Assembly (NCBI GenBank): GCA_014138725.1
Contig: JACJID010000004.1
Coordinates: forward strand, 558,001-622,000
Direction of reading: 5' to 3'
Source of the DNA: Kutzneria viridogrisea
Lineage (GTDB): Bacteria; Actinomycetota; Actinomycetes; Mycobacteriales; Pseudonocardiaceae
DNA: 64,000 nt
Of the stretch, positions 15,692 to 62,034 are shown piece by piece (within the stretch, counting starts at the first letter, position 1; every line of letters begins with the position of its first letter). Under the pieces are notes generated by a model. It was given only the letters and a program-made list of their open reading frames with translations. It was not told the DNA's origin and did not search any database. A program made the translations under genes and the position numbers.

Positions 15692-15742
15692 CCATGAAAG
15701 TGCCGTTCACTGCGCTGAGCGCAGTGAACGGCACTTTCATGG
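15692..15742. terminator. Long perfect hairpin, copy 1 of the ATGAAAGTGCC family
   Basis: Bases 15692-15715 pair perfectly with 15719-15742 (24 bp), leaving a TGA triloop. It lies between convergent genes. The outer arm (ATGAAAGTGCCGTTC) recurs at 38805 and, with changes, at 61982. It is likely a bidirectional terminator or a mobile repeat element. Confidence 0.75.
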
Positions 15743-15757
15743 CGGTAGGGCGCGGCC

Positions 15758-16444
15758 TCAGCCGCGCAGCTCCACGCAGCAGCCCCCGGCCCCCGGCACC
15801 AGCTCGGCGCGGACCGTACCGGCCGCCAGCCCCGCCAGCACCCCGCTCAGCAGCGCCTGGTTGAGCCCGCACACCAGCTCGGGTGCCCTGGCCACCACCG
15901 GGTGGAACGGGCAGCTGCGCAGCCGCACACAGGTGGGCGCGCTGCGCTCGGGCTCGAATCCGCAGCCCGCCAGCACCGACTCAGCCAGGGTCAGCGCGCG
16001 CTCGGTACCCAGCCTGCCCGGCCTGCTGCGCTCGCGCTCGGCGGCGCCCAGGGCATGTCCGCGCTCCGCGGCCACCCGCAGTCCGGCCTCGCGCGCGGTC
16101 TCCCCCGGTCGCTCGGCAAGCGCGGCGTCGACCAGCAACTCGGCGAGCAGGTCGTGGCGGCGCTGCGGGATGGACACGCACACGTCCTGAGCTGCGGGCT
16201 CGTAGACTGTGGGGCGCCGCCCGACGCGTCGCGCCCCGGCAGTGTCGGCGGGCCGCGCGCTCAGCAGGCCCGCGTCGACCAGCTTGTCCAGGTGGAAGGC
16301 GGCCAGCTTGCGCGAGATGCCCACCGAGCTCGCGGCCTCGTCCCTGGTCACGGGCCTGCCCGCGCGCCGGATGTACTCGTACATGCCGTGCCGCAGGTCG
16401 TCGTCCAGCGCGGCCACCGCCGCGATGCCAGGACGTACCGTCAT
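15758..16444 (-). CDS. SufR-like / COG2345 winged-helix regulator with C-terminal cysteines
   Basis: The 228-residue protein has an ArsR/DeoR-like winged helix at residues 10-70 (RPVTRDEAASSVGISRKLAAFHLDKLVDAGLL, shown here as helices two and three). The C-terminal half carries spaced cysteines: AGCGFEP, TCVRLRSCPFHPV, LVCGLNQALL and the terminal GGCCVEL. The CPFHPV...CGLN spacing resembles SufR, where cysteines hold an Fe-S cluster and the protein represses suf genes. An Fe-S or redox sensor role is therefore plausible but unproven. No suf genes are nearby; the divergent neighbour is folE. The gene ends beside the long hairpin. Confidence 0.7.
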   Translation of the reverse strand: MTVRPGIAAVAALDDDLRHGMYEYIRRAGRPVTRDEAASSVGISRKLAAFHLDKLVDAGLLSARPADTAGARRVGRRPTVYEPAAQDVCVSIPQRRHDLLAELLVDAALAERPGETAREAGLRVAAERGHALGAAERERSRPGRLGTERALTLAESVLAGCGFEPERSAPTCVRLRSCPFHPVVARAPELVCGLNQALLSGVLAGLAAGTVRAELVPGAGGCCVELRG

Positions 16445-16556
16445 GGGTCCATGATATCGCTCACAGCAATGGGTGATAATTGGGTACCCGCTGGCTGTTG
16501 ACGGTGAGATGTCAATAAGTCCAAGCTTTGTTGGAGAAAGTACGAGGAGGCTGGCC

Positions 16557-17141
16557 GTGAGTCTGCATGTGGCGCCCGAGGTGGGTCAGCCCGATCTGGC
16601 CGCCGCCGAGCTGGCCGCCGGGCAGTTCCTGCGCGCACTGGGCATCAGCACCGAGTCGGAGAGCCTGCGCGACACCCCGCGCCGCATGGCCAAGGCCTAC
16701 GCGGAGCTGTTCAGCCCGCGGCCCTTCGACCTGACGACCTTCCCCAACGACGAGGGCTACGACGAGCTGGTGCTGGCCCGCAGCATCCCGCTGCGCTCGG
16801 TGTGCGAGCACCACCTGCTGCCCTTCGTGGGCGTGGCGCACGTGGGCTACCTGCCGGGCAGCCGCATCCTGGGCCTGTCCAAGCTGGCCAGAGTGGTCGA
16901 GCACTTCGCGTGCCGACCCCAGGTCCAGGAGCGGCTGACCAAGCAGGTCGCCGACTGGCTGCACGCGCAGTTGCAGCCCAAGGGCGTGGGCGTGGTGATC
17001 GCGGCCGAGCACACCTGCATGACCCTGCGCGGGGTGCAGGCGGTTGGCTCCTCCACCGTCACCTCCACCCTGCTGGGCACGCTGCGCTCGGACGCCCGGT
17101 CCCGCCAGGAGTTCTTCGCCCTGACGGGCATCAACCCCTGA
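16557..17141 (+). CDS. folE: GTP cyclohydrolase I
   Basis: GTG 16557 lies 6 bases after AGGAGG (16545-16550) and gives 194 residues, the usual length. The enzyme converts GTP to 7,8-dihydroneopterin triphosphate, the first step toward folate and other pterins, as a cytoplasmic toroid. Zinc ligands are visible in SVCEHHLLPFVG and HTCMTLRG. GYLPGSRILGLSKLARVVE and QERLTKQVADWL are signature segments. The frame open back to 16473 has no RBS. It is divergent from the SufR-like regulator and ends one base from the convergent E2 gene. Confidence 0.93.
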   Translation: MSLHVAPEVGQPDLAAAELAAGQFLRALGISTESESLRDTPRRMAKAYAELFSPRPFDLTTFPNDEGYDELVLARSIPLRSVCEHHLLPFVGVAHVGYLPGSRILGLSKLARVVEHFACRPQVQERLTKQVADWLHAQLQPKGVGVVIAAEHTCMTLRGVQAVGSSTVTSTLLGTLRSDARSRQEFFALTGINP

Positions 17142-17142
17142 G

Positions 17143-18351
17143 CTACAGCCCGGCCAGCAGCACCAGTGGGCGCTCCACGCAGTCGGCCACGAAGCGCAGG
17201 AAGCCGCCAGCGGTGCCGCCGTCGCACACCCGGTGGTCGAAGGTGAAGGACAACTGGGTCACCTTGCGCACCGCGAGCTGCCCGTCCACCGCCCAGGGCT
17301 TGTCCACGATGCGCCCCACGCCCAGCAGGGCCGCCTCCGGGTGGTTGATGATCGGCGTGGAGCCGTCCACCCCGAACACCCCGTAGTTGTTCAGGGTGAA
17401 CGTGCCGCCCGTCAGCTCCTCGGTGCGCAGCGAGCCCGCGCGCGCCGCCTCGGTCAACCTGGTCAGCTCGGCGGCCAGCTCGGTCGTGGTGAGCTGGTCG
17501 GCACCCCGCACCACCGGGACCACCAGCCCGCGGTCGGACTGCACCGCGAAGCCCAGGTTGATCCCCCGCAGGCGGACGATCTCCTGCCGCTCGGTGTCCA
17601 CTGTGGAGTTCAGCTCGGGAAACTTCCGCAGCCCCGCGACACAGATGCGGGCCATCAGCGGCAGCACCCCGACGCCCAGCACCTTCTTGGCGTCCATCAG
17701 CCCGGTGGCGTCCACGTCCACCCAGGTCGTGGCGTCCGGTATCTCGTGGCGGCTGCGGGAGAGCTTGTCAGCGATGGCCTTGCGCACCCCCTTGAGCGGC
17801 ACGCGCTCGGCATCGGCCTGCGCCGCAACGGGTTGGGGCGCGGGCTTGGCGATCGCGGCTTCCACGTCCTTGCGCAGCACCACACCGGCCGGTCCGCTGG
17901 GCGTGAGCGTGGCGATGTCGATCCCGTTGTCCTTGGCCAGCTTGCGGACCACCGGCGAGAGGACCCTCGGCGCCACGGCCTGCGCGCTCGGCGCGATCTT
18001 CGGGCCGCGCCGCCGTCGGGACACCACTTCTTCCTTGGTGCCGTAGCCGATCAGCACGTTGCCCGAACCGGCCTTCTCCTCCTCGCGGTACCGCTCCGCG
18101 GCGGCGTCCCCGCCCGACACGGAGATCAGCGGGGCGCCGACCTCCACCACGGCGCCCGCGTCGGCGTGCAGGGTCAGCACGGTTCCCGCGTAGGGCACCG
18201 GCACCTCGACCGCGGCCTTGGCCGTCTCCACCTCGACCACCACCTGGTCGATGCTGACCGTGTCGCCCACGGCGACCCGCCAGGTGAGCACCTCGGCCTC
18301 GGTCAGGCCCTCACCGAGGTCGGGCAGGCGGAAGAGCTGCTCCACGGTCAT
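17143..18351 (-). CDS. Branched-chain 2-oxoacid dehydrogenase E2 (dihydrolipoyl acyltransferase)
   Basis: The 402-residue product has an N-terminal lipoyl domain (residues 5-80; lipoylated Lys in VETAKAAVEV), a hinge, and a peripheral subunit-binding domain (about 125-165; SPVVRKLAKDNGIDIATL). A catalytic acyltransferase core with FDHRVCDGGTAGGF near the end carries the catalytic His and Asp. It transfers acyl groups from E1 to CoA. The gene is third in an E1 alpha-E1 beta-E2 operon, overlapping E1 beta by 4 bases. No E3 lies here. Branched-chain specificity is inferred from the operon and the Lrp regulator. Confidence 0.9.
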   Translation of the reverse strand: MTVEQLFRLPDLGEGLTEAEVLTWRVAVGDTVSIDQVVVEVETAKAAVEVPVPYAGTVLTLHADAGAVVEVGAPLISVSGGDAAAERYREEEKAGSGNVLIGYGTKEEVVSRRRRGPKIAPSAQAVAPRVLSPVVRKLAKDNGIDIATLTPSGPAGVVLRKDVEAAIAKPAPQPVAAQADAERVPLKGVRKAIADKLSRSRHEIPDATTWVDVDATGLMDAKKVLGVGVLPLMARICVAGLRKFPELNSTVDTERQEIVRLRGINLGFAVQSDRGLVVPVVRGADQLTTTELAAELTRLTEAARAGSLRTEELTGGTFTLNNYGVFGVDGSTPIINHPEAALLGVGRIVDKPWAVDGQLAVRKVTQLSFTFDHRVCDGGTAGGFLRFVADCVERPLVLLAGL

Positions 18352-19361: not shown

Positions 19362-19362
19362 G

Positions 19363-20460: not shown

Positions 20461-20575
20461 GACGAACCCCTTCCGCTGACGTTTGACACGTGATACTCGA
20501 CATTTTGAGCTACATGTTCAACACTGCGACCGAAGTAGCGATGGATTGTTGGAAATACGCGGACGGGAAGACAAC
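20461..20575. promoter_or_regulatory. Divergent control region of the E1/E2 operon and the Lrp regulator
   Basis: This 115-base region is unusually AT-rich for the window. It contains TTGACA at 20483-20488 and the stretch around 20500-20520 with half-site-like TTTTGAG and ATGTTCAA. Lrp-type regulators generally bind such divergent regions. Exact -10 boxes are not convincing. Confidence 0.5.
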
Positions 20576-21085: not shown

Positions 21086-21086
21086 C

Positions 21087-22109: not shown

Positions 22110-22170
22110 AGCCAACCTCCTGACCGGAGTCTGTCACGGCCAGGCCGAACTCACCTGTGGTCTGCGCCAC

Positions 22171-23217: not shown

Positions 23218-23258
23218 CAGGCCACGTTAGTCTCAGAACCGCTGGGCACGCAGTCGAA

Positions 23259-23939: not shown

Positions 23940-23978
23940 GAGCCCAACATCGAGCCCTGCCGCGCCCGCGTTACGGGC

Positions 23979-37330: not shown

Positions 37331-38812
37331 GTGTCGCCGACCCCCGATTGGACGCCTGTGAGCCCCCGGTTTCGCCCGGTCAACCGCCTGGACCACGCAC
37401 TGATGCAACGCAGCGCCGCACTGCCCCGCTCGCGCGCCGACACCGTGCTCAAGGTCATCTCCGCGGCCGCCAACCACAGCCTGCTGTGGGGTGCGGTGGC
37501 CGCCGTGCTCGCCGCGCGCAAGGGGCCAACCCGGCGGGCCGCCCTGCGCGGCATCGCGGCGATCGCGGGCGCCAGCTTCACCGCGAACGCGGTCGGCAAG
37601 ACCCTGCTGCCCCGCCGCCGCCCGGCCGCCGAACTGGTCGCCGAGCACCGCCGCCTGGTCAAGCGGCCGACCTCCTCCTCGTTCCCCTCCGGGCACGCCG
37701 CCTCCGCCGCCGCGTTCACCACCGCCGTGGCGCTGGAATCGCCCAAGGCGGCGGCCGTGGTCGCCCCGCTGGCGGCCGCGGTGGCGTACTCGCGGGTGCA
37801 CACCGGGGTGCACTGGGGCTCCGACGTGGCCTGCGGGGCGCTGGTCGGGGTGGCCGCCGGGCTGCTCACGCGGCGCTGGTGGCCGGTGGTGGACGAGCAG
37901 GCGCCGCCGACCCGGCGCCGGGTCGAGGTCCCGGCCTTCGAGCAGGGCGAGGGCCTGCTGTTCGTGGTCAACCCCAACTCCGGTCCCGGTGAGGGCGACT
38001 TCTCCGAGCAGGTCCGCGAGAACTGGCCCTCGGCGACCGTCGTGCTGCTGGACCAGGACACCGACCTGGACGCCCTGGTCGGCGAGCACGGCCCCAAGGC
38101 GCTGGGCGTGGCCGGGGGCGACGGCACCGTGGCCGCCATGGCCGCACTGGCCACCGAGCACGACCTGCCGCTGGTCGTGCTGCCCGCGGGCACCCTCAAC
38201 CACTTCGCCCGCGACCTTGGCGTGGACGCCGTGCAGACCGCACGCGCCGCCGTGCGCGCCGGCGACGGGGCCGCCGTGGACCTGGGTGCGGTGACCGTGG
38301 GCGGGTCCGAGCCGCGGCTGTTCCTCAACACCGCGAGCCTGGGCGGCTACCCCGACCTGGTCCGGCTGCGCGACAAGCACGCCGACCGCTGGGGCAAGTG
38401 GCCCGCCGGGGCGTACGCGCTGATCCGCGTCCTGCACGAGGCCCGGCCACTGGACGTCACGATCAACGGTGAGCGGCTGCGGGTGTGGATGCTGTTCGTC
38501 GGCAACAACGTGTACCTGCCACGCGGTTTCGCCCCGCTGACCCGCGCGCGCCTGGACACCGGCCTGCTCGACGTGCGCTACCTGCGTGCCGACCTGCCCC
38601 TCTCGCGGACCCGGTTCATCCTCGCCGCCGTGCTGGGCGCCCTGCACCGCAGCCACGTGTACCGCCAGGCTGACCTGCCCCGGCTGCGCGTCACGGTGCA
38701 CAGCGCCCCCGTGGCCATCGCCACCGACGGGGAGGTCGGCGAGCAGGCCACCCGGTTCGAGTTCACCGCCCGCAGGGCCGCGCTGGTGACCTACCTGCCC
38801 CAGCTGTCATGA
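37331..38812 (+). CDS. PAP2 phosphatase - diacylglycerol kinase fusion protein
   Basis: The 493-residue product starts at GTG 37331 (GTG 37358 also possible). The N-terminal PAP2 domain (about 20-190) has [19 protein letters not shown] and [12 protein letters not shown], the phosphatase motifs. The C-terminal DAGK domain (about 215-490) has [25 protein letters not shown] and [14 protein letters not shown]. The fusion is common in actinobacteria. It could dephosphorylate and rephosphorylate lipid or isoprenoid substrates at the membrane; its real substrate is unknown. The stop codon lies inside a long hairpin repeat. Confidence 0.87.
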
Positions 38813-38859
38813 AAGTGCCGTTCCTGGCGTTGAACGCCAGGAACGGCACTTTCATGACA
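38805..38859. terminator. Long perfect hairpin, copy 2 of the ATGAAAGTGCC family
   Basis: Bases 38805-38830 pair with 38834-38859 (26 bp, perfect, TGA triloop). The outer 15 bases equal copy 1 at 15694; the inner stem differs but stays paired. It includes the stop codon of the PAP2 fusion gene and faces a convergent gene. Confidence 0.75.
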
Positions 38860-38865: not shown

Positions 38866-39948
38866 TCAGCGCAGGGCGAGGAACTGCTTGCCCGACTTGT
38901 CGGCCCCGCCGGCCCACAGGCCGCCACCGGGGACGGCGGTCAGCACGCCCACCCGCCGGGTCGGAGCCGTCGGGCCGGTGGCCGTCTGCCAGCCGGAACC
39001 GGTCCAGCTCAGCAGCCCGTTGGTGGTGTCGCCACTGCCGCCGATCCCGGCGTACAGGGTGCCGCCGTCCTCGGCGAAGCCGGTGAGCCGGGTGTCACCG
39101 GTGTCCGGCACCGGCACGAGGCCGAAGCCCTGCGCGGTCCCGCGCAGCACGATCGCCTTGCCCGGGACGTACTTCGACTGGTAGCCGCCGGCCCACACCT
39201 CACCGTTGGCGCGCACCAGCACCGAGGTCAGCCTGACGTCCTCGGTGAACCCGGGCAGGGCGGCCCTGGTCCAGCTGGTGCCGTCCCAGTGCACCAGGTA
39301 GGGCTCGGACTTGGCGTTGGCCACGTCCGCGCTGATCGACCCCGCCGCCCACACGTTGGTGGCCGACACGGCGTGGACGGCGGTCAGCGAACCCGAGTAA
39401 CCGGCGGGCACCGGGGTCCGGGTGACCGACCAGCTGCTGCCGTTCCAGTGGCCGACCTGCGGGTGGAAGAAACCGTCGCCGCGATCGGAACCCGCCGCCC
39501 ACAGGTCGCTGGCCGACTTGGACTGCGCGGCGAGCACCTCGAAGTCCTTCGAGCCCTGCTCGGTCCACCGCCCGCCGTTCCACCGGTATCCCGGGAACCT
39601 GGTGGCGCCACCGCTGTCATCGCGGCCGAAGACCCACTCGTCGGTGGCCGACACCCCGGTGACCGCGCCGGGCACGAGGGACTCGCTGGGCAGTGTCAGT
39701 GTGGTCCACTGCTGACCGCCCCACTGCCAGACGCGCTTGTACGTGCGGTGGTTGCCGATGATCCAGTACTCGGTGCCGAGCGCGATCGCCGAGTCGTGGC
39801 CGAACGCGGTGATCTGGTCGGTGTACCAGCCGTCCATCGTGGTCGGTGGGTTGTGCACCTGCCAACCGGGCTCGGCCGCACCCGCCTGGGCGCCGGTGCC
39901 GAGCACCAGCAGCAATCCCGCTGCCGCGGCAGCCAAGAGTCTTCGCAT
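38866..39948 (-). CDS. Secreted beta-propeller-like protein
   Basis: ATG 39948 gives 360 residues with a signal peptide cut near residue 25 (AQAGAAEP). The mature protein has repeated short blocks of the type W-x-W-x-G-x-x-W followed by S-A-x-D-x-W-A-A-G (WQWGGQQWTT, VSATDEWVFG; WNGSSWSVTR, VSATNVWAAG; WDGTSWTRAA, RANGEVWAGG). This indicates a 5-7 blade propeller similar to WD40/Kelch-like secreted actinobacterial proteins. I do not recognise an enzymatic site, so a binding or surface role is likely. It sits between prcA and the PAP2 gene, interrupting the usual proteasome locus. Confidence 0.7.
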   Translation of the reverse strand: MRRLLAAAAAGLLLVLGTGAQAGAAEPGWQVHNPPTTMDGWYTDQITAFGHDSAIALGTEYWIIGNHRTYKRVWQWGGQQWTTLTLPSESLVPGAVTGVSATDEWVFGRDDSGGATRFPGYRWNGGRWTEQGSKDFEVLAAQSKSASDLWAAGSDRGDGFFHPQVGHWNGSSWSVTRTPVPAGYSGSLTAVHAVSATNVWAAGSISADVANAKSEPYLVHWDGTSWTRAALPGFTEDVRLTSVLVRANGEVWAGGYQSKYVPGKAIVLRGTAQGFGLVPVPDTGDTRLTGFAEDGGTLYAGIGGSGDTTNGLLSWTGSGWQTATGPTAPTRRVGVLTAVPGGGLWAGGADKSGKQFLALR

Positions 39949-40018
39949 GGGCGGGATGCTAAGGAACTCGTATATCGGGCGATTATCGCGTTGTGGCAAG
40001 AAAAGCTAGGCTCCGCCC

Positions 40019-46328: not shown

Positions 46329-46347
46329 GGGGCAAAGCTATGGAGGT

Positions 46348-46385
46348 GGGCCGTCAGCCTGCGTCGGTCCGCAGGCTGACGGCCC
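46348..46385 (-). terminator. Perfect 16-bp hairpin after the sedolisin gene
   Basis: Bases 46348-46363 pair with 46370-46385 with a 6-base loop. It is located downstream of the minus-strand sedolisin gene and just upstream of the permease start. Confidence 0.65.
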
Positions 46386-46408
46386 AGTGATACCCCAGTC
46401 GCAGGCGA

Positions 46409-49847: not shown

Positions 49848-49849
49848 GC

Positions 49850-49944: not shown

Positions 49945-50611
49945 AGCCGTTGAGCTTGGCGGCGGCGATGGGCGTGACCTGGCCGAGCAGGTCACGGGCC
50001 TTGGCGTCACTGGTGGTGACGACCTGCACCCTGGCCACCAGCTCGCCCTTCGCCAGCAGCATCGAGCAGCTGTACGACTGGCCGTGCTCGCACCAGGAGG
50101 CGTGCGAGTCCACACCGGTGGGCTGCTTGGCCAGCTCGATCGGCGTGACCGTGCCGCCCGGGTAGGACCTGCACCCGTTCAGCGCCTGCTTGACCTTGGC
50201 CACGACCTGCGCGCCGGTGCTGCCCTGGTAGCTGCCCACGTACTCGGTCAGGGTCGTGACCGCGGAGGAGCCGACCAGCCCGATCTGGGCGCCGGACACC
50301 GGCTTGCCCAGCGGTACGGCACAGGTCTCCAACTGGGCCACGCTGGCCGCGTGTTCGGCTTCCTTCGGGTTGAACCCGATCTCGGCCACCGACTCGGCCG
50401 TCAGCACCGCGGCCACGGCCCTGAGCTGCGCTGCCTGCGGGTCCGCGGTGGGCTTGGCGCTGCTCGACACCGCGGTCGTGCTCGCCGGGGCCTCGGCGGT
50501 CGTGGTCGGCTGCTCCTCGTCCTGGGCATAGTGCCGCAGGTCGTTGGGCTTGCCGGAGCAGCCAGCCACCAGGACGGCGACTCCCACGCCGACCACCAAC
50601 GCGCGACGCAC
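49943..50611 (-). CDS. Lipoprotein of unknown function (DUF3558-like)
   Basis: GTG 50611 lies 7 bases after GGAGG and gives 222 residues. The lipobox VLVAGC places the lipidated Cys at about residue 18. A Thr/Ser/Ala/Pro linker (about 35-60) leads to a compact domain (about 65-222) with four cysteines (ETCAVPLG, LNGCRSYPG, ASWCEHGQSYSCSM). The overall pattern resembles DUF3558-type actinobacterial lipoproteins, but I am not certain of the family. It would be anchored to the outer face of the membrane. The frame continuing up to 51670 is antisense shadow. Confidence 0.7.
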   Translation of the reverse strand: MRRALVVGVGVAVLVAGCSGKPNDLRHYAQDEEQPTTTAEAPASTTAVSSSAKPTADPQAAQLRAVAAVLTAESVAEIGFNPKEAEHAASVAQLETCAVPLGKPVSGAQIGLVGSSAVTTLTEYVGSYQGSTGAQVVAKVKQALNGCRSYPGGTVTPIELAKQPTGVDSHASWCEHGQSYSCSMLLAKGELVARVQVVTTSDAKARDLLGQVTPIAAAKLNG

Positions 50612-50682
50612 CGCTGCACCTCCGGGATTGGTCTGATCTTCGCCCGAGGGTAGTGGTCGGCCTGGACGGGCCCGCGATCGGC

Positions 50683-51609
50683 TCAGTTCCAGGCCAGCGC
50701 GGACCGCTCCGCCCAGTAGCGCCGCGCGGGCACGGCCAGCGCCGCCAGCCGCTCGTACGGGGGCAACCGCACGTGCAGGGCGGCCAGGTTGGCCCGCACC
50801 TGGGCCGGGCTGGCGGCACCGAGCAGCACCGTGCCCGCCCAGGGCTGGGCCAGCGCGGCGGCCAGGGCCAGCGCGTCGCAGCCCACGCCCGCGTCCTCGG
50901 CCATGGCCAGCAGGTCGGCGGGCGGGTCCACCGCGAGCCGCCCGTTGGCCAGCGCCTCCTTGACCAGCACGTGCGCCCCGGCCTCGTAGGCCTCGGCCAG
51001 CGCGGGGCCCGCCGAGGGGTCGAGCAGGTTCCAGGTGGACTGCACCACGGAGAACAGCGGGCGGCCCTGCACGCGCAGCGCCATCGCCCGCCGGATCGTG
51101 TCGGCCTGCTGCGGGCCGCTGGTGCTGAACCCGACCCGCACGCCCTGCTCGATCAGCCCGGCCAGCGACTCCAGCAGCAGCGGGTCGTTGAACAGCGGAC
51201 TGTCCAGGGTCAGCGAGTGCACCTGGTACACGGCCAGCCGGTCGCCGAGCAGTTCCTCGCTCTGCGCCCACTGCTGCTCGAACCGGTCCAGGCTGTGCTG
51301 CTTGACCTCGTGCACCTCGGCGTCGGGCCGCCAGTCGGCCACGTAGGCGTAGCCCCACTTGCTGGACACCACCACGTCCTCGTGGCCCCGGTCGGTCAGC
51401 CACCCGGCCAGGAACTCCTCGGCCCTGCCGTAGGAGCGGGCCGCGTCCACCCAGCGCACCCCCGCCGCGTAGGCCTCGTCCAGCACCTTCCAGCTGGCCG
51501 CCCGCATCGCGGGCACGGTGCGGACCTCGGGCAGCGCGCCCTGCCGCCCCAGGTTGATGTAGGCCGGTCTGCCCAGCGCCGCCAGCCCCAGTCCGATCCT
51601 GTCGAGCAT
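50683..51609 (-). CDS. Aldo/keto reductase
   Basis: ATG 51609 with AGGA about 8 bases upstream gives 308 residues. The barrel shows AGVRWVDAARSYGRAEEFLAGW (catalytic Asp and Tyr), VVSSKWGYAYVADW (Lys) and LAVYQVHSLTLDS (His in the fourth strand), then VGFSTSGPQQAD. NADPH-dependent reduction of a carbonyl compound is likely, in the cytoplasm. The substrate is unknown. It lies downstream of arc but is separated from it by a strong hairpin. Confidence 0.86.
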   Translation of the reverse strand: MLDRIGLGLAALGRPAYINLGRQGALPEVRTVPAMRAASWKVLDEAYAAGVRWVDAARSYGRAEEFLAGWLTDRGHEDVVVSSKWGYAYVADWRPDAEVHEVKQHSLDRFEQQWAQSEELLGDRLAVYQVHSLTLDSPLFNDPLLLESLAGLIEQGVRVGFSTSGPQQADTIRRAMALRVQGRPLFSVVQSTWNLLDPSAGPALAEAYEAGAHVLVKEALANGRLAVDPPADLLAMAEDAGVGCDALALAAALAQPWAGTVLLGAASPAQVRANLAALHVRLPPYERLAALAVPARRYWAERSALAWN

Positions 51610-51670
51610 CCCCAGTTCCTCCCCGTGCACTCCCCCAGCCGAACCTAATCGGCCGAGGACCCGCGCGCAC

Positions 51671-51716
51671 GGCAAAACGGAGGCCCTGTCGCCACGACCT
51701 GGCGACAGGGCCTCCG
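51671..51716 (-). terminator. Intrinsic-type terminator of arc
   Basis: Bases 51678-51694 pair perfectly with 51700-51716 (17 bp, 5-base loop), 10 bases beyond the arc stop on the minus strand. On that strand the stem is followed by TTTT (51677-51674), making it the clearest Rho-independent terminator in the window. Confidence 0.8.
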
Positions 51717-51726
51717 CAGTGCTCAC

Positions 51727-53520
51727 CTACAGGTACTGACCAGTGTTGTTGGCGGTGTCGATCGCGCGACCCGACTCCTGGTTCTTGCCGGTCACCAGGG
51801 TGCGGATGTAGACGATGCGCTCGCCCTTCTTGCCCGAGATCCTTGCCCAGTCGTCCGGGTTGGTCGTGTTGGGCAGGTCCTCGTTCTCGGCGAACTCGTC
51901 GATGATGGCGTCGACGAGGTGCTGCACGCGCAGGCCCGGCTCGCGGGTCTCCAGCACGGCCTTGATCGCGGCCTTCTTGGCCCGGTCCACGATGTTCTGG
52001 ATCATCGCGCCGGAGTTGAAGTCCTTGAAGTACAGGACCTCCTTGTCACCGTTGGCGTAGGTGACCTCCAGGAACCGGTTGTCGTCGGACTCGTCGTACA
52101 TCCGCTCGACGGTGTGCTGGATCATCGCCTCCATGCACCGCTTGGCATCGCCGGCGAACTCGGCGAGGTCGTCGGCGTGGATGGGCAGCGTCTCCGTGAG
52201 GTACTTGGAGAAGATGTCCTTGGCCGCCTCGGCGTCCGGACGCTCGATCTTGATCTTCACGTCCAGCCGGCCCGGGCGCAGGATGGCCGGGTCGATCATG
52301 TCCTCACGGTTGGAGGCGCCGATGACGATGACGTTCTCCAGGCCCTCGACACCGTCGATCTCGGCCAGCAGCTGCGGCACGATCGTGGTCTCCACGTCGG
52401 AGGACACGCCGCTGCCACGGGTGCGGAAGATCGAGTCCATCTCGTCGAAGAACACGATCACCGGCGTGCCCTCGGAGGCCTTCTCCCTGGCCCGCTGGAA
52501 GATCAGCCGGATGTGCCGCTCGGTCTCGCCAACGAACTTGTTGAGCAGCTCGGGGCCCTTGATGTTGAGGAAGTAGGACTTGGCCTGCCCGTCGTCGTCA
52601 CCACGGGCCGCCGCGACCTGCTTGGCCAGGGAGTTGGCCACCGCCTTGGCGATCAGCGTCTTGCCGCAGCCGGGAGGGCCGTAGAGCAGCACGCCCTTGG
52701 GCGGGCGCAGCTGGTACTCGTGGAACAGCTCGGCGTGCAGGAAGGGCATCTCCACGGCGTCGCGGATCTGCTCGATCTGCCGGAACAGGCCACCGATGTC
52801 GGCGTAGTCGACGTCGGGCACCTCCTCCAGCACGAGGTCCTCGACCTCCGCCTTGGGCACCCGCTCGTAGGCGTACCCCGCCTTGCTGTCCACCAGCAGG
52901 GAGTCGCCCGGCTTGAGCGGGGCGTCGACCAGCGGGTCGGCCAGCCAGACCACGCGCTCCTCGTCGGCGTGCCCGACCACCAGTGCCCTGGTCGCGCCCG
53001 ACTCGAAGTCGGTGAGCAGCTCGCGCAGCGTGCACACCTCGCCGGTGCGCTCGAAGCCGCCGCCCTCGACCACGGTCAGCGCCTCGTTGAGCCGGACCGA
53101 CTGGCCCAGGCGCAGCTCGGAGCCGTCGACCGCGGGCGAGACGGCCACCCTCATGCGCCGGCCCGCGGTGAACACGTCCACCGTGCCGTCCTCGTGACCT
53201 GCCAGGTAGACGCCGTAGCCGCTGGGTGGCTGCGCGAGGCGGTCGACCTCCTCGCGCAGCGCGAGGAGCTGACTGCGTGCTTCCCGGAGGGTGTCCACCA
53301 GCTTCGTGTTGCGCTCGGTCAGCTGACTGACGCGCTCGGACGCCTCTGCCAGTCGCTGCTCGAGCAGCCGGACGTGTCGTGGGGATTCCGTCAGTTTGCG
53401 CCGCAACAGCGCGATCTCGTCCTCGAGGAACCTGACCTGCGCGGACAACTCAGCGGCCGTCATGCCACTGTTCAGCTCGCCACCCTCATCGGGCTGGCTG
53501 CCGGGACGGTCGGTCTGCAT
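51727..53520 (-). CDS. arc: Proteasomal AAA ATPase ARC/Mpa
   Basis: The 597-residue protein has an N-terminal coiled coil (about 21-97) that captures Pup, two OB folds (about 100-230), and an AAA module with [14 protein letters not shown] (about 281-294, Walker A), FFDEMDSIF (Walker B) and [18 protein letters not shown]. It ends NNTGQYL, the C-terminal motif with penultimate Tyr that docks into the proteasome alpha ring and opens the gate. The hexamer unfolds pupylated proteins. About 8 kb of accessory genes separate it from dop, although in mycobacteria the distance is short. Confidence 0.95.
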
Positions 53521-53903
53521 GTCGGCACCCTCCTCCCGTGTTACGTCTTCCCACGGTACCGGCGATCACCGACAACCGAGAGGCCCCCAGGCCGAGCCTG
53601 GGTTCCGAAACGGATACGAAACGCCCGCTCGGCCGGATGAACTACTCCAACTCGGTGTCAGGGGGAACCAGTCAGCCACTACGGTGCGTCTCAGGTGCTC
53701 GTCGTCCGAGGTCGTCCGGGCAGTGTCCCCAACGGCCACCGGCAGTGCTAGGAGAAAGTGATGACCGTCCCTTCACCCAATCGGCCCATAGCTGGCCGCG
53801 AGGGTGGTCATCCCCGGCAATCGGGTGGTTGCGCACAGCTACCCCGCCGGGCTCCGCAGACCTACCTGACCAGTGCAACACCCAGTTCGGGGGAGAGACT
53901 CCA
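53521..53903. other. 383-base divergent region between arc and the first Pro/Gln-rich gene
   Basis: This region must contain the arc promoter and the promoter of the plus-strand gene at 53904. Frames open across it in both directions have no RBS-linked start and no family features. I see no repeat module or strong palindrome here. Confidence 0.55.
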
Positions 53904-54782
53904 GTGACCTACCCACCGCAGCAGCCCGGCCAGCCCGGACCCTACGGACAGCCCGGCGGCTTCCCGCAACAGCCGCAGCAGCCCGGTGGGTACCCGCAGC
54001 AGCCCGCGGGCGGGTTCCCCCAGCAGCCCGGGTACCCGCAGCAGCCCACCGGCGGGTTCCCCCAGCAGCCGCAGCAGCCCAACCCGTACGGGCAGCAGCC
54101 CTCCGGCGGGTTCCCGCAGCAGCCCTCCGGTGGCTTCCCCCAGCAGCCACAGTTCGGGCAGCAGTTCGGCCAGCCCGGCGGCTACCCCGGCGGGCCGGTG
54201 CCCGGCAAGAAGAGCCCGCTGCCGTGGATCCTCGGCGGGGTGGGCGTGCTCGTGGTCGTGGCCCTGATCGTGGTGTTCGTCTTCGTCAAGCCCTTCGGCG
54301 GCGGCACCAGCGGGTCCCCCGAGGACGCGGCGCAGGCGATCGTCGACATGTACAACAAGCAGGACGCCAGCGGCATCCGCGCCGCCACCTGCAAGAAGCT
54401 GCAGGACGACGTCGACAACGCCATGAAGAACCTGGACCCGAGCAAGCTCACCGCCTCGCTGCCCGCCGAGCTGCGCAACATGACGCTGAAGGCCAGCCTG
54501 GTCGGGGTCACCTCCGTGAGCGACAGCTCGGCGGATGCCAAGGTGTCCCAGCACTTCGAGAACGTGCCGTCCAAGTACGCCTCGATGATCAAGGACCGGA
54601 CCGTCACCATGAAGATGGTCAAGGAGAGCGGGAGCTGGAAGGTCTGCGGGCTCAGCGGCCTGTCCTCCGGCGGTTCCACCAGCCCCAGCGGCTCCACCCG
54701 GCCCAGCAGCTCGGGCGGCTACGGGGGTTACGGCAGCTCGGTGATCCCGACCTACCCGACCTACCCCAGCTACGGCAACTGA
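53904..54782 (+). CDS. Pro/Gln-rich membrane protein with extracytoplasmic DUF4878-like domain
   Basis: GTG 53904 after a GGGGGAGAG site gives 292 residues. The first 95 residues are a cytoplasmic low-complexity region of PQQPGG-type repeats. A single membrane helix (about 105-127) is followed by a domain (about 133-250) with [19 protein letters not shown] and [11 protein letters not shown], which resembles DUF4878/lumazine-binding-like folds. A Ser/Gly/Tyr/Pro tail ([11 protein letters not shown]) ends it. It is the first of a paralogous group (also 55549 and 56359). Function is unknown; such proteins are often called putative membrane or secreted proteins in actinobacteria. Confidence 0.75.
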
Positions 54783-54795
54783 TCCCAGCACGCCC

Positions 54796-54830
54796 GACGG
54801 CACGCCGATCCCCGCGATCGGCGTGCCGTC
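54796..54830 (+). terminator. Perfect 15-bp hairpin after the Pro/Gln-rich gene
   Basis: Bases 54796-54810 pair with 54816-54830 with a 5-base loop, 14 bases after the stop. The right arm reaches into a decayed paralogue fragment. Confidence 0.6.
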
Positions 54831-55029
54831 CAAGTACCAGTCGCTCTACAAGGACCGGCAGATCGACCTGACGCTCACCAAGGAGATCGGCTCCTGGATG
54901 CTGTGCGGCATGTCCTTGGGTAAGTCCAGCACAGGGGGCGGCACCAGCGAGTCCCCGACGTACCCGAGTGCGCCGACCCACAGCTCCGGGTACCCGAGCT
55001 ACACCTACCCGACCTACCCCACTCGCTGA
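54823..55029 (+). pseudogene. Decayed 3' fragment of a paralogous membrane protein gene
   Basis: The frame encodes 68 residues: VPSKYQSLYKDRQIDLTLTK, then EIGSWMLCGMSLG, and a Ser/Thr/Tyr/Pro tail. This is clearly homologous to the C-terminus of the gene ending at 54782 ([32 protein letters not shown], then the Tyr/Pro tail). The N-terminal Pro/Gln region, membrane helix and most of the domain are absent. The only start, GTG 54823, lies inside the hairpin arm. It is probably a remnant of a tandem duplication. Confidence 0.65.
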
Positions 55030-55079
55030 AGGGTTCGTGCACCAGTGGGGCCGGCCGGTCGCCGGGCCCCACTCGGCGA

Positions 55080-55367
55080 TCAGGTGGACGCGGCGAGGCA
55101 CGCCTTCCACGCGAGGTCCCCGTCAACCTGCCGATTCATCAGAATGCCGAGGCAGACCCCCATGTCACCGGTCGCACCCGCCCCGCATGCCGCGGCAGTG
55201 AACTCGCCGACCGGGTAGCCAGCGTCGTGGACGATCTGCTCGCAGGCCGCGACGGTGGCCGGAGCCGCCGGGGCGGCCTGCGCGAGCGCCGGCGAGAGCA
55301 ACACGAGAGCACCAGCGGTCAGTGCGGCACAAGCGACAACAGATCGACGCGCAACACGAAATGTCAC
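55080..55367 (-). CDS. Small secreted four-cysteine protein
   Basis: GTG 55367 with GGGGG upstream gives 95 residues. A signal peptide (about 1-33; LTAGALVLLSPALAQAAPA) precedes a mature domain of about 60 residues. Four cysteines are seen: VAACEQIV, TAAACGAG, MGVCLGIL and AWKACLAA, so two disulfides are likely. No family is recognised. It is transcribed against its Pro/Gln-rich neighbours, so it is an independent unit. The frame extended to 55547 has no RBS. Confidence 0.6.
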   Translation of the reverse strand: MTFRVARRSVVACAALTAGALVLLSPALAQAAPAAPATVAACEQIVHDAGYPVGEFTAAACGAGATGDMGVCLGILMNRQVDGDLAWKACLAAST

Positions 55368-55548
55368 AACAACCCCCAAGAAAGAACGTGACTGAACCTC
55401 GATTCCGACGCTAGCAGTCGCCTGCTGACATCGTCCCAGCTTTCCGCGAGGTCGGGTCCGTTGTCCCTCGAACAGCCCCTTCCCGAGACATGCCCCTGAA
55501 CGGGGCGCATAATCGACCGGCCGTGCGATCAGGAGGAGATGCAGCACC

Positions 55549-56325
55549 GTGACCTACCCACCGCAGCAGCCCGGCCAGCCCGACCCGTACGGGCAGCAGC
55601 CCCAGCAGTACGGGCAGCAGCCGTGGGGCCAGCAGCCCACCGGTTACCCGCAGTCCGGCGGCTTCCCGCAGCAGCAGCCCGGCGGTTACCCGCAACAGCC
55701 GGCGAACCCGCAGCAGCCCTACGGCCAGCCGCAGCCCCAGCAGTACGGCCAGCAGCCAGGCTGGGGTCAGCAGCCCGGTGAGCAGCAGCAGTTCGGGCAG
55801 CAGCCGTACGGCCAGCCGCAGCCGGGTGAGCAGCAGTTCGGGCAGAACCCGGGCTGGGCACAGCAGCAGCCGCAGTTCGGCCAGCCCTACGGCCAGCCGC
55901 CCGCCAAGCGCAAGCGCACCGGGCTGATCATCGGCGTGATCGCGGCGGTCGTGCTGGTACTCGGCGGCGGTGTGGGCGCCTACTTCCTGTTCTTCACCAA
56001 GAACGCGCAGTCCGACCCGGAGCAGACCGGCCGCGCCGTCATCGACGCGCTCAACGCCAAGGACGAGCCCCGCGTGCTGGAGCTGACCTGCTCGTCCTAC
56101 CAGGCCACGCTCAAGAAGCGGCTGGACCAGGCCGACTCGATCATCGGCTCGAACGCGCAGCTGAAGTTCAGCTTCCAGGGCATCAAGACCGAGGGCGACA
56201 AGTCCACCGTGTCCATGCACTACGAGGGCACCCTGGGCAACGACAAGGGCGCCAAGGACGACACCATCGCCCTGGTCCGCAGCGCGGACAGCGGCAAGTG
56301 GGAGATCTGCCCGTCCAAGAAGTAG
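55549..56325 (+). CDS. Pro/Gln-rich membrane protein, paralogue 2
   Basis: GTG 55549 follows AGGAGGAG, giving 258 residues. The N-terminal 120 residues are an extreme low-complexity region of PQQ, YGQ and QQPG units. A membrane helix (about 125-147; GLIIGVIAAVVLVLGGGVGA) precedes an extracytoplasmic domain (about 155-258) with QTGRAVIDALNAKDEPRVLEL and SGKWEICPSKK. It shares its first residues ([15 protein letters not shown]) and layout with the gene at 53904 but differs in the C-terminal tail. It probably forms a unit with the next gene, 33 bases downstream. Confidence 0.75.
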   Translation: MTYPPQQPGQPDPYGQQPQQYGQQPWGQQPTGYPQSGGFPQQQPGGYPQQPANPQQPYGQPQPQQYGQQPGWGQQPGEQQQFGQQPYGQPQPGEQQFGQNPGWAQQQPQFGQPYGQPPAKRKRTGLIIGVIAAVVLVLGGGVGAYFLFFTKNAQSDPEQTGRAVIDALNAKDEPRVLELTCSSYQATLKKRLDQADSIIGSNAQLKFSFQGIKTEGDKSTVSMHYEGTLGNDKGAKDDTIALVRSADSGKWEICPSKK

Positions 56326-56358
56326 TCAGGCACGAAGCAGCGAGCGGGAGCAACACGC

Positions 56359-58861
<2,503 letters not shown>

Positions 58862-58950
58862 CGCCGGCCAGCGTATTGCCTGGAGTGTTGTGCCGGGGTG
58901 ACGAGGTGTCGATCACCAGCTTGTCAGGGGTCTGGCTTACTGTGCGTGGC

Positions 58951-59805
58951 ATGTCCGAGCACGTAGTGCGCAGGCCGGCGCTGTCCCCCTCGCGGGCCAG
59001 CGACTTCAAGCAGTGCCCGCTGCTCTACCGGTTCCGCGCGGTCGACCGGCTGCCCGAGAAGCCGACCAGGGCGCAGGTACGCGGCACCGTGGTGCACTCG
59101 GTGCTGGAACAGCTGTTCGCGCTGCCCGCGGACCAGCGGGTGCCCAGCACCGCACAGGACCTGCTGCACCCGTCCTGGAGCAGGCTGCTCGCCGAGCGCG
59201 CGGAGCTGGCCGAGCTGTTCAGCGGGGAGCAGGACCCGGAGTTCGGCCGGTGGCTCGAGGACGCGCAGAAGATGCTGACCGGCTACTTCGGCCTGGAGGA
59301 CCCGCGCAGGCTGGAGCCGGAGGCCTGCGAGCTGCTGGTGGAGGCCGAGCTGCCCTCCGGGGTGCTGCTGCGCGGCTACATCGACCGGCTGGACGTGGCC
59401 CCGACCGGGGAGATCCGGGTGGTCGACTACAAGACCGGGGCAGCGCCGAGGGAGATCGGCGAGGCCAAGGCCATGTTCCAGATGAAGTTCTACGCGCTGG
59501 TGCTGTGGCGGCTGCGCGGGGTGGTGCCCCGGCAGCTGCGGCTGATGTACCTGGCCGACCGGCAGAACCTGGCCTACGCCCCGGACGAGGCCGAGCTGCG
59601 CCGGTTCGAGCGCACCCTGGAGGCGATCTGGGCCGCGATCCTGCGCGCGGGCCGGACCGGGGACTTCCGGCCCAACCCGAGCAGGCTGTGCGACTGGTGC
59701 GACCACAAGGCGCTGTGCCCGGAGTTCGGCGGCACCCCGCCGCCCTACCCCGGCTGGCCGGAGCCGGACCCGGGGGTGGAGACCGCACTGGACCGCTCCG
59801 ACTAG
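58951..59805 (+). CDS. RecB-family PD-(D/E)XK nuclease with Fe-S cysteines
   Basis: ATG 58951 gives 284 residues. LSPSRASDFKQCPLLYRFRA supplies the first Cys (about residue 22), and CDWCDHKALCPEFG near residue 250 the other three, the AddB/Cas4-type 4Fe-4S pattern. GTVVHSVLEQLF, RGYIDRLDVAP and IRVVDYKTGAAP provide the His, Asp and D-x-K nuclease residues. It is an orthologue of the RecB-like exonuclease next to trmI in mycobacteria (Rv2119-like). No cas genes are near, so a DNA repair role is more likely than CRISPR adaptation. Confidence 0.87.
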   Translation: MSEHVVRRPALSPSRASDFKQCPLLYRFRAVDRLPEKPTRAQVRGTVVHSVLEQLFALPADQRVPSTAQDLLHPSWSRLLAERAELAELFSGEQDPEFGRWLEDAQKMLTGYFGLEDPRRLEPEACELLVEAELPSGVLLRGYIDRLDVAPTGEIRVVDYKTGAAPREIGEAKAMFQMKFYALVLWRLRGVVPRQLRLMYLADRQNLAYAPDEAELRRFERTLEAIWAAILRAGRTGDFRPNPSRLCDWCDHKALCPEFGGTPPPYPGWPEPDPGVETALDRSD

Positions 59806-59866
59806 GGTGGGGGTACCCGACCCGCACGCCGGTGCGCACGGAGTGCCCGGCGGAACGGAGCCCCTC

Positions 59867-60247
59867 ATGCCCGCTGCTCCCTTCGACCACGGCGAGCTGA
59901 TCGCACTGGACAGCGAATCGGTCGGTGACGCCGTGGTGGTGCACGTGACCGGTGAGCTCGACCTGCCGACGGCCGCGGCCGCCGACGCCGAGCTGGCCAG
60001 GGCGGTCGACAGTGGGGCGCGCGCCGTGGTGGTGGACCTGGACAAGGTGCACTTCCTGGGGTCCAGCGGGCTGCGCGTGCTGCTCACCGTGCGTGACAAG
60101 GCCGAGCAGGGCGGGGTGGACCTGCGGCTGGTCTGCCAGGAGCGGGTGGTGGTGCGCCCGCTGGAGGTCACCGGGCTGCTCTCGGCGTTCCAGATCCACC
60201 CCTCGGTGCGCGAGGCGGTCGACGCGGCGGCTCAGCGAGCGCGCTGA
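59867..60247 (+). CDS. STAS-domain anti-sigma factor antagonist
   Basis: ATG 59867 with GGAG upstream gives 126 residues. The STAS fold is clear: VVVHVTGELDLPTAAAAD, VVVDLDKVHFLGSSGLRVLL with the phosphorylatable Ser in SSGL, and a C-terminal helix. Such proteins bind anti-sigma kinases (RsbW type) and are released by phosphorylation. No partner kinase or sigma gene lies here, so the pathway is unknown. The frame open to 59807 lacks an RBS. It is 18 bases from the next gene's start region. Confidence 0.85.
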   Translation: MPAAPFDHGELIALDSESVGDAVVVHVTGELDLPTAAAADAELARAVDSGARAVVVDLDKVHFLGSSGLRVLLTVRDKAEQGGVDLRLVCQERVVVRPLEVTGLLSAFQIHPSVREAVDAAAQRAR

Positions 60248-60256
60248 GCGTGCACA

Positions 60257-60823
60257 ATGGCCCCCGTGGGGGAGCACAAGCAACGCATGCTGGCCGGGGA
60301 GCTCTACCGGGACAACGATCCCGAGCTGCTCGCCGAGCGCAAGCACTGCCAGCGCCTGCTGGACCGGTTCAACGCAACGACCGCCGACCAGGACGAGGAA
60401 CGGTCGGCTCTGCTGGCCGAGTTGCTCGGCGGCATCGGCGAGGGCTCCTGGGTGATGCCCCGCTTCCAGTGCGACTACGGGTACCTGATCACCTTGGGCC
60501 GCAACAGTTTCCTCAACTACGACGCGATTCTCATGGACTGCGCGCCGATCACCATCGGCGATGACGTGTCCATCGGGCCGCGCGCGCAACTGCTCACGGC
60601 GCTGCACCCGGTCGCCGAGCACGACCTGCGCCGCGAGCGCTGGGAGTCGGCGGCACCGATCAGCATCGGCGACAACGTGTGGCTGGGTGGCGGCGTGATC
60701 GTCTGCCCGGGGGTGCGCATCGGCGCCGACACCGTGGTCGGCGCGGGCAGCGTGGTGACCAGGGACCTGCCCGAGCGGGTGCTGGCCGCGGGCAATCCGT
60801 GCCGCGTGATCCGACCCCTGTAG
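60257..60823 (+). CDS. Hexapeptide-repeat O-acetyltransferase (maltose acetyltransferase type)
   Basis: The 188-residue protein starts at ATG 60257; GTG 60266 is possible. The N-terminal helix pair (HKQRMLAGELYRDNDPELLA) is typical of the Mac domain. Left-handed beta-helix repeats follow (about 75-180): ITIGDDVSIGPRAQLLTALH carries the catalytic His region, then ISIGDNVWLGGGVIVCPGV and RIGADTVVGAGSVVTRDLP. It transfers acetyl from acetyl-CoA to a sugar or similar hydroxyl, as a trimer. The last base of its stop is the first base of the MFS gene. Confidence 0.88.
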   Translation: MAPVGEHKQRMLAGELYRDNDPELLAERKHCQRLLDRFNATTADQDEERSALLAELLGGIGEGSWVMPRFQCDYGYLITLGRNSFLNYDAILMDCAPITIGDDVSIGPRAQLLTALHPVAEHDLRRERWESAAPISIGDNVWLGGGVIVCPGVRIGADTVVGAGSVVTRDLPERVLAAGNPCRVIRPL

Positions 60824-62001
60824 TGCGCTCCTACCTGGTGCTGCTCCGCCTGCCGGGCGCGGCGGGCTTCGTCGGCGCGGGCCTGGTCGCGCGGCTGCCG
60901 ATCGCGATGCGCTCGGTGGGCTGCGTGCTGATGGTCTCCGCGCTGACCGGGTCCTACGCGCTGGCGGGCGCGGTGGCGGCCACGCTCGTGCTGTCCCAGG
61001 CGGCCGTCGCACCCGTGGTGGGCAGGCTGGTGGACCGCCGCGGACAGGCACCGATCATCTACGGGGCGCTGGCCGTCAACGTGGTGGGCACCCCGCTGCT
61101 CGTGGGCCTGGCCGTGGCGGGCGCCCCGCTGTGGACCTTGCCGCCCGCGGCGGTGCTGGCCGGGGTCTCGGCGCTGCCGATGGGCTCGCTGGCCCGCGCG
61201 CGGTGGAGTGCCGCCGCCGCGGGCACACCGCACGTGGCCAGCGCCTACGCCCTGGAGTCGGTGCTCGACGAGGTCATCTACGTGACGGGGCCGGTGCTGG
61301 TGACCGCGCTGGCCGTGGGGGTGTTCCCGGGCGCGGGCCTGCTCGGCGCGCTGGTGCTGTACGTGCTGGGCGGGATCGCGCTGGCGCTGCAACGCGGCAC
61401 CGAGCCGCCCCGGCACGAGCCCGCGCGCAGTAGTGGCCGGATCGCCTCGCCCGGCCTGCTGCTGGTGCTCGTCCTGGGCCTGCTCACCGGGACGTACTTC
61501 GGCGACCTGGACGTGTCGATGATCGCCTTCGCCGGGGAACACGGTGGGCTGGGTCCCGCTGGTCTGCTGATGGCGATGATCGCCGCGGGCAGTCTCGTGT
61601 CCGGCCTGGTGTACGGGGCCGTGCACTGGCGGGCGAGCACTGGCCGCCGCACGGTGATCGCGGCGCTGGGCCTGGCGGTGGGCACCGTGCCGCTGCTGCT
61701 GGCGGGCTCGGTCCCGGTGATGGCGGCCTGCGCGGCCCTGGCCGGGCTGGCGGCCTCCCCGTTGTTGATCTGCTCCTACACGCTGGTGCAGGAGCTGGTC
61801 CCCGCGCGGTCGCGCACCGAGGGCTTCGCCTGGCTGTCCAGTGCGATCACGCTGGGCATGGCACTGGGCTCGGCGGTCGCGGGCGGCCTGGTCGACCTCG
61901 GTGGCAGCCCTGCCGCGCTGCTACTGGGCGTGGGCTGCACGGCGGCGGGCTTCCTCACCGCGCTGGCCCGTTCCGCGGGCCGTCATGAAGGTGCCTTTTG
62001 A
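60823..62001 (+). CDS. Major facilitator superfamily transporter
   Basis: GTG 60823 overlaps the preceding stop by one base, giving 392 residues. About twelve hydrophobic segments are visible. PVVGRLVDRRGQAPIIYG is the loop 2-3 signature (GRxxDRRG). PARSRTEGFAWLSSAITLGMALGS resembles the later-half loop of drug-efflux type MFS proteins (SetA/YfkF-like). The substrate is unknown. The final codons (GRHEGAF and stop) lie inside the third long hairpin. Confidence 0.84.
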   Translation: MRSYLVLLRLPGAAGFVGAGLVARLPIAMRSVGCVLMVSALTGSYALAGAVAATLVLSQAAVAPVVGRLVDRRGQAPIIYGALAVNVVGTPLLVGLAVAGAPLWTLPPAAVLAGVSALPMGSLARARWSAAAAGTPHVASAYALESVLDEVIYVTGPVLVTALAVGVFPGAGLLGALVLYVLGGIALALQRGTEPPRHEPARSSGRIASPGLLLVLVLGLLTGTYFGDLDVSMIAFAGEHGGLGPAGLLMAMIAAGSLVSGLVYGAVHWRASTGRRTVIAALGLAVGTVPLLLAGSVPVMAACAALAGLAASPLLICSYTLVQELVPARSRTEGFAWLSSAITLGMALGSAVAGGLVDLGGSPAALLLGVGCTAAGFLTALARSAGRHEGAF

Positions 62002-62034
62002 GACGTTGGGCGTCTCGAAGGGCACCTTCATGAC
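61982..62034 (+). terminator. Long hairpin, copy 3, with two G.U pairs
   Basis: Bases 61982-62005 pair with 62011-62034 (24 bp, loop TTGGG). Two positions are T.G, which pair as U.G only if the plus strand is transcribed. The outer arm (GTCATGAAGGTGCC) is a variant of copies 1 and 2. It ends the MFS gene and faces hisG. Confidence 0.72.

Follow-up and report, generated by a model that had tools for sequence, protein, structure and literature searches.

A dispersed 55-bp two-unit palindrome between convergent genes of Kutzneria viridogrisea and its relatives, a candidate bidirectional terminator

Three hairpins between convergent genes

We examined a window of 64,000 nucleotides of the Kutzneria viridogrisea genome (positions 558001-622000 of contig C4; assembly of 10.25 Mb, here genome G000), in which a first-pass annotation had pointed out three long hairpins. 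All three were found where they had been described, and each proved to be one copy of a dispersed 55-bp element, built of two 25-bp units and a 5-nt linker, that in our favoured reading acts at the 3' ends of converging genes. Copy 1 spans 15690-15744 (unit 15690-15714, linker 15715-15719, unit 15720-15744), copy 2 spans 38805-38859 (unit 38805-38829, linker 38830-38834, unit 38835-38859) and copy 3 spans 61981-62035 (unit 61981-62005, linker 62006-62010, unit 62011-62035). Copies 1 and 2 belong to the GAAAGTGCC class of the family and have ATGAAAGTGCCGTTC in common, with inner-stem differences that are matched on both arms, and copy 3 belongs to the GAAGGTGCC class and carries, as first described, two T.G pairs on the + strand. 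The perfect 26-bp stem given for copy 2 was right, whereas for copies 1 and 3 the fold has 25 pairs, not 24. Folding of the + strand as RNA gave -49.5, -49.6 and -44.0 kcal/mol for copies 1, 2 and 3 (z-scores of -14.3, -13.0 and -12.0, equalled by 0 of 200 shuffles), and copy 3 gave -35.0 kcal/mol (z -9.8) on the - strand.

Our own gene calls, together with Pfam, placed all three copies between convergent genes, in agreement with the annotation. Copy 1 is preceded by an esterase/abhydrolase-like gene (14634..15674, + strand; PF10503) and met from the other side by a gene (15758..16417, - strand) with a helix-turn-helix match under the Pfam cut-off. A gene with PAP2 and diacylglycerol kinase domains (37331..38812, + strand) ends in copy 2, its TGA stop (38810-38812) being inside the element, and the gene that converges on it (38866..39999, - strand) has a weak beta-propeller match, under the cut-off. 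Copy 3 encodes the final six codons (RHEGAF) and the TGA stop of a major facilitator superfamily (MFS) transporter gene (60823..62001, + strand), which converges with a hisG-like gene (62042..62911, - strand). No transposase was found among the 8 proteins neighbouring the three copies, and no Rfam match at the gathering score was found within the window. Two more long inverted repeats, at 46347-46386 and 51678-51716 (scores 17 and 18), are outside the 55-bp family.

Copy number and anatomy

The genome-wide search that the first-pass annotation had proposed showed that the element is not absent elsewhere. The strict pattern ATGAARGTGCC N{10,40} GGCACYTTCAT had 171 matches in the genome and the wider pattern TGAARGTGSC N{23,27} GSCACYTTCA had 243, with 0 for the reversed-pattern control in both cases; across the order sample the reversed control gave one match, in G156. 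Among the places listed for K. viridogrisea, the pattern matches were of a single length throughout. In addition, three blocks of 400 kb each, 1.2 Mb in all, were scanned with a looser search in which gaps of 17-33 were allowed, and genes were called by a rough caller of our own; the results on copies that follow refer to this sample. Copies were accepted on a 43-base core with at most two mismatches and at least 12 pairs, and 64 were kept. Eight candidates of other lengths with at least 13 pairs had three mismatches each, were all within predicted genes and were left out.

The 64 copies align over 55 columns, with a linker of 5 nt in every copy. Each element consists of a 25-bp unit, YGYCnnGAAnGnnnCnTTCnnGRCR, the linker YYNRR and a second such unit, which puts 30 bp between the centres of the units. 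The units are themselves near-palindromes, each a mismatched dyad about 3 unpaired bases without an asymmetric tail. Two folds are open to the copies, a single long hairpin, in which 89.1% of cells pair, and a pair of small hairpins, with 87.4%. The unit start is most often TGTC or CGTC followed by AT, with TGCC, CGCC and other forms also frequent, and this tag is paired; the linker keeps its purine/pyrimidine pattern despite poor pairing. Pairs of units with at most four mismatches each peaked at the 30-bp spacing (66 pairs), while partnerless units with at most three mismatches numbered 109, against 81 units at the same threshold in shuffled sequence. Only one exact lone unit was present, and it adjoins a complete copy. 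By sequence, 20 copies fell into the GAAAGTGCC class, with nearly perfect stems, 27 into the GAAGGTGCC class and 8 into the GAAGGTGGC class, and 9 were mixed or other.

Clusters of three to five elements were seen at C2:518632-519109, C2:543640-543864, C2:734390-734626 and C4:737185-738106, in the last of which two and three elements flank a HutD gene. The distance between several clustered elements is 96 bp, in some cases with similar spacers that hold CAGGCTCACC, and the clusters with this spacing are perhaps a larger composite repeat. Ten proteins flanking the clusters included no transposase; one of the ten is a Uma2 'putative restriction endonuclease'. A second, unrelated family of long palindromes, built on CCGACACGCGG and GGAAGCGCCGACACGCGG with arms of up to 36 bp, occurs at C4:404143-404216 and at several places in the blocks from C1 and C2.

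Placement at gene ends

Convergent gaps make up 19,428 of the 108,095 intergenic bases of the 1.2-Mb sample (18%) and hold 38 of the 64 copies; 17 copies are in codirectional gaps, 8 in divergent gaps and 1 inside a predicted gene. At least one element is carried by 27 of 183 convergent gene pairs. In many copies the GAA core is 7-24 nt from a stop codon, and the stop codon was wholly or partly within the 55 bp in 13 of 93 pairings of an element with a gene end. When the element length (55 bp per copy) was subtracted, the median gap of the element-bearing convergent pairs was 22 bp, versus 19.5 bp in element-free gaps. Convergent gaps that lack the element also tend to hold hairpins: among those of at least 30 bp, 36 of 75 had one of -30 kcal/mol or lower, compared to 2 of 75 intragenic stretches of the same length, and at -20 kcal/mol or lower the counts were 70 of 75 and 52 of 75. 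Likewise, 21 of the 36 other palindromes scoring at least 18 in the fetched blocks (congener families included) were in convergent gaps and 2 were within genes.

Orthologous sites

Two loci from genus g19 were orthologous (86% over 3 kb). Fifteen g19 genomes were searched, and the site was read in the seven that gave near-full-length collinear matches (the query's own included); the other eight matched partly. In six of the seven species a 55-bp element is present between the same convergent stops, with flanking spacers that vary in length. Eight pairs of this element have changed on both sides (columns 3/53, 7/49, 8/48, 9/47, 21/35, 22/34, 25/31 and 26/30), among them one G-C to C-G swap, and none of 500 shuffles reached as many. 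Of 156 cells, 96.2% pair and 3.8% are unpaired, compared to 89.8% paired in shuffles and at most 52.6% in slid registers. In the seventh species (G724) the element is missing, and these two stops enclose a different palindrome of 42 bp with perfect 20-bp arms. Since the hairpin persists in six species and is represented by an unrelated palindrome in the seventh, these data indicate that a hairpin is kept at this site while its sequence is replaceable.

In the genus of K. viridogrisea itself, no adjacent convergent pair with an element was common to the congeners, and single neighbouring genes were compared instead, by eye. Beside gene 237, where K. viridogrisea has the element, all three congeners have a GC hairpin followed by a T run, and one of them has its own long palindrome as well. 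Beside the kinase gene that ends in copy 2, a plain hairpin is present in two of three congeners. At a third site two of three congeners carry a long palindrome of their own and the other has a short GC hairpin only; in a fourth congener the neighbour is codirectional and the site is not comparable.

Covariation and wobble pairs within the genome

Among the 64 copies, which are related to one another, changes on both sides of a pair occurred in 208 cells, compared to 87.6 in shuffles. The first-pass annotation had described an inner stem that covaries, and this holds for copies 1 and 2 and for their class: in 15 of the 20 GAAAGTGCC copies both arms share the triplet at columns 19-21, where 3.4 would be expected. 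It does not hold for the class of copy 3, since the arms of GAAGGTGCC copies match at these columns in 2 of 27, as against 3.3 expected if the arms were independent. The two arms of a GAAGGTGCC copy are not more alike than arms taken from different copies (21.7 versus 21.2 of 27), and the outer sequence is strongly kept; that the fold and not the sequence is conserved is not supported as a general rule. In the GAAGGTGGC class 7 of 8 copies were matched, versus 5.6 expected, and own-arm likeness was not higher (22.5 versus 23.4). The U.G pairs of copy 3 had also been taken as support for a role in RNA, and this did not extend to the family: in the 17 codirectional copies 20 wobbles are valid in the transcribed strand and 20 in the opposite strand, the convergent copies have 52 and 51 on the two strands, and the eight divergent copies have 6 and 16.

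Spread across relatives

The strict sequence had 0 matches in six congeners of K. viridogrisea and was found in 4 of the 397 genomes of the order sample, K. viridogrisea included; the three other genomes together hold four matches. The architecture goes further. Among long palindromes in three congener blocks, 14 of 57 contain a sub-palindrome whose centre is offset by 15.0 bp from the midpoint, compared to 0 in one shuffle, and these palindromes carry other sequences. Species-specificity is a property of the strict sequence and not of the architecture. The syntenic blocks of G398, G399 and G401 (L076-L135) contain palindrome families on GCCACATGCGCTTCC..ATGTGGC, ACGTGAGTGGCTCACTTGG and GGAAAGGACCATTCC, and at G401:C1:1359020-1359104 two good units and a degenerate third stand in a row with the 30-bp spacing.

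A covariance model, which had also been proposed at the first pass, was built from the 64 copies and run on both strands, with matches counted up to a maximum for each genome. At E <= 0.001 it matched in 65 of the 120 genomes of family f1 (K. viridogrisea included; the family is presumably Pseudonocardiaceae), in 33 of 46 genera, and the matches among the places listed are 55 bp long. In the class sample, at E <= 0.0001, 10 of 197 genomes matched, K. viridogrisea being one of them. Each of the remaining nine gave one or two matches; in seven these are weak and of other lengths, and in G481 and G489 a single place of 55 bp matched (8e-11 and 2e-10). The element family thus appears to be centred on f1 and not strictly confined there. 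The 25+5+25 form was present in 17 of 19 fetched loci (14 genomes, 13 genera); the two that differ, L172 and L176 of G274, have related units in elements of 59 and 60 bp. Over the 19 loci Rfam gave no match to the element and a single match in all, an L31-Actinobacteria ribosomal protein leader at L173:730-779 (- strand; G144), near the element but away from it. One 53-bp sequence, with three linker bases partly free, had 39 + strand matches in G458, 27 in G446, 4 in G251 and 0 in the other 246 genomes. Such sets of copies are bursts of near-identical sequence; amplification is species-specific, and lineages have their own versions of the 55-bp form. A pattern scan of named genomes returned at least three records, from Lentzea alba, a Methylomirabilota metagenome-assembled genome (MAG) and an actinobacterial MAG; by eye, the first fits the 55-bp plan, the second is not a hairpin and the third is a partial hairpin.

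Mobility

The Y1 transposase (REP-associated tyrosine transposase, RAYT; PF01797), where REP stands for repetitive extragenic palindrome, had 0 matches in K. viridogrisea and none in 18 of 22 element-rich genomes; it was present in four, in one as a fragment, and also in 3 of 11 genomes without covariance-model matches. A RAYT-borne REP was therefore rejected. Direct repeats of 3 bp just outside the element were found 4 times, versus about 1.5 expected, and a classical miniature inverted-repeat transposable element (MITE) was rejected because no clear target-site duplication was seen. A DNA uptake sequence was rejected as well, since CATGAARGTG occurs 79 times in the 1.2 Mb, only 3 times outside elements, and lone arms are nearly absent. 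Carriage by phage or plasmid was likewise rejected: of two pattern scans of viral contigs one returned 0 stretches and the other 1, and no plasmid was found when the element of one relative was used as the query. The one viral stretch (L178:927-971, an IMG/VR contig) is a 45-base hairpin that starts with TGAAAGTGCC, is otherwise AT-rich and is probably unrelated.

Interpretation

On balance we think it probable that the family is a dispersed REPIN-like extragenic element (REPIN, REP doublet forming a hairpin) that multiplies within lineages and most likely serves as a bidirectional, U-poor terminator or 3'-end stabiliser between convergent genes. The two-unit 55-bp element would multiply in a given lineage, presumably by some copying process, and would persist mainly between convergent genes; its hairpin of 25-26 pairs would form in the RNA of either converging gene and, because it is symmetric, could serve both, acting as a two-way terminator and as a stabiliser of both 3' ends. 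A REPIN-like repeat would in this way supply like hairpins to gene ends, where they probably terminate transcription. The first-pass annotation had suggested either a class of dispersed terminators or a mobile hairpin of non-autonomous kind, and both suggestions fit, the former with the convergent 3' ends and a g19 hairpin that is kept by compensation or replaced, the latter with dispersal and species-specific amplification.

Several observations weigh against this reading. Direct repeats of 4-6 bp showed no clear excess at the flanks of elements, nor did we see an empty allele for any recent insertion. Divergent gaps hold 8 of the 64 copies, another strong hairpin is also present in 7 of the 27 element-bearing convergent gaps, and the arms of the GAAGGTGCC class vary as if independent. 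A scan for U-tails over 50000-64000 of the window did not list copy 3, and no T run was evident by eye in the flanks of copies 1 and 2. According to the part of a Streptomyces terminator study that was available (PMC12207403), A-tracts, by which that study recognises bidirectional terminators, hardly occur in Streptomyces, where many 3' ends may be produced by Rho or by processing of the RNA. The same 3'-end bias, moreover, would be expected of a tolerated selfish repeat.

We also considered a more specific scheme, possible in our view but doubtful, in which a new kind of RAYT-free, REPIN-like mobile hairpin centred on f1 has a rigid 55-bp doublet, its units being two-fold symmetric, with an exact 30-bp register that is read by a putative recombinase or binding protein, and the host uses the copies as interchangeable two-way terminators. 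That the element is a purely selfish REPIN-like repeat, for which convergent 3' ends are the least harmful insertion sites and termination is incidental, seems unlikely to us, even though species-specific bursts, the clusters with several elements 96 bp apart and the copies in divergent gaps would all suit it, and a 3'-end bias is reported for REPs in the accessible text of PMC3733652. Compensatory change that keeps the pairing in six species at the g19 site, with an unrelated hairpin in the seventh, argues against it, and the search for a mobilising enzyme (the Y1 transposase, in K. viridogrisea and the element-rich genomes) was mostly negative. The main alternative to a terminator is a protein that reads the two-fold symmetric units: the 25-bp units would be protein sites 30 bp apart, and the protein, once bound, would act as a block or an insulator for converging polymerases, or would organise the DNA. 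The fixed unit columns are symmetric about the centre, the 30-bp register is seen again in families of different sequence, the purine/pyrimidine pattern of the linker is retained in spite of poor pairing, the wobbles have no RNA-strand bias and the arms of the largest class (GAAGGTGCC) vary independently at columns 19-21. Such a DNA-level role nevertheless has to contend with compensatory changes along the long stem at the g19 site and with the G724 hairpin, which stands there without the unit sequence, and we rate it as quite unlikely. Least probable, and only a slight chance to our mind, is that templated repair rather than selection keeps the pairing, one arm of a near-palindrome being copied onto the other during replication. 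This would yield matched multi-base changes like those of the GAAAGTGCC class and the g19 site, but the equally long GAAGGTGCC class is left uncorrected in the same genome (2 of 27 matched), and the unrelated hairpin of G724 is not explained. If the terminator reading that we favour is true, a bacterial family builds terminators from a self-multiplying palindrome, without the transposase to which the best known dispersed hairpins are ascribed, and the copies would form natural libraries from which candidate two-way terminators could be drawn for actinomycetes.

Comparison with known systems

Among the papers listed by our full-text search, none was seen to describe the 55-bp family; most subscription journals were outside its coverage, and an earlier report is possible. 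Two genome papers on Pseudonocardiaceae do not contain the words palindrom-, terminator, hairpin or stem-loop, and the retrieved text of the REP survey (PMC3733652) has no mention of Saccharopolyspora, Amycolatopsis, Actinobacteria or Actinosynnema. The RepRanger paper, in the portion available, lists three actinomycetes, which belong to other families. Like intrinsic terminators as usually described, the 55-bp hairpins are stable, GC-rich and placed at the 3' ends of genes; the U-rich tract that would follow the stem was not seen in the three copies of the window. Terminators are generally unique sequences, whereas these hairpins are copies of one fixed-length element. With the GC-rich terminators of actinomycetes, as the consulted sections of PMC12207403 describe them, the element shares a stem that is long and stable, a scarcity of U behind it and a position at gene ends, and Streptomyces terminators are reported there to be long, stable and U-poor.

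The closest likenesses are to dispersed palindromes. REPINs and bacterial interspersed mosaic elements (BIMEs), in the accessible part of PMC3116915, likewise have short palindromic units in inverted order that form one hairpin, with the doublet as the repeated unit, a high copy number, extragenic location, compensatory changes and some tandem clusters. The linker here, however, is fixed at 5 nt, whereas the 16-mers of GI are separated by 71 bp according to that paper; the single units come close to two-fold symmetry, the foot is YGYC and not GTAG, and Y1 (RAYT) is unmatched in K. viridogrisea and in 18 of 22 element-rich relatives. The CGTC-tagged REPs, from what the available text of PMC3733652 reports, resemble the element in forming dimers, in convergent placement near both 3' ends and in lacking a dedicated transposase, and those of our copies whose arms differ are reminiscent of the REP heterodimers described there. 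Their tag, CGTC or TGTC followed by AT at the stem start, is also the commonest start of the present units, beside other frequent forms. Those REPs have stems of 8-9 bp, loops of 4-5, CCA-like tails and spacers of mostly 20-100 bp, whereas in the 55-bp element the tag is paired, every one of the 64 aligned copies has a spacer of 5 nt and the tail is absent; the five phyla named for them in that text do not include Actinobacteria. How REPs spread without a dedicated enzyme is a question that the CGTC REPs had already raised (PMC3733652, same portion), and it becomes testable in genomes that carry an element dozens to hundreds of times and have no Y1 match. Dimeric extragenic palindromes are already known; the 55-bp family is set apart by its fixed 5-nt linker and by the absence of RAYT from most carriers.

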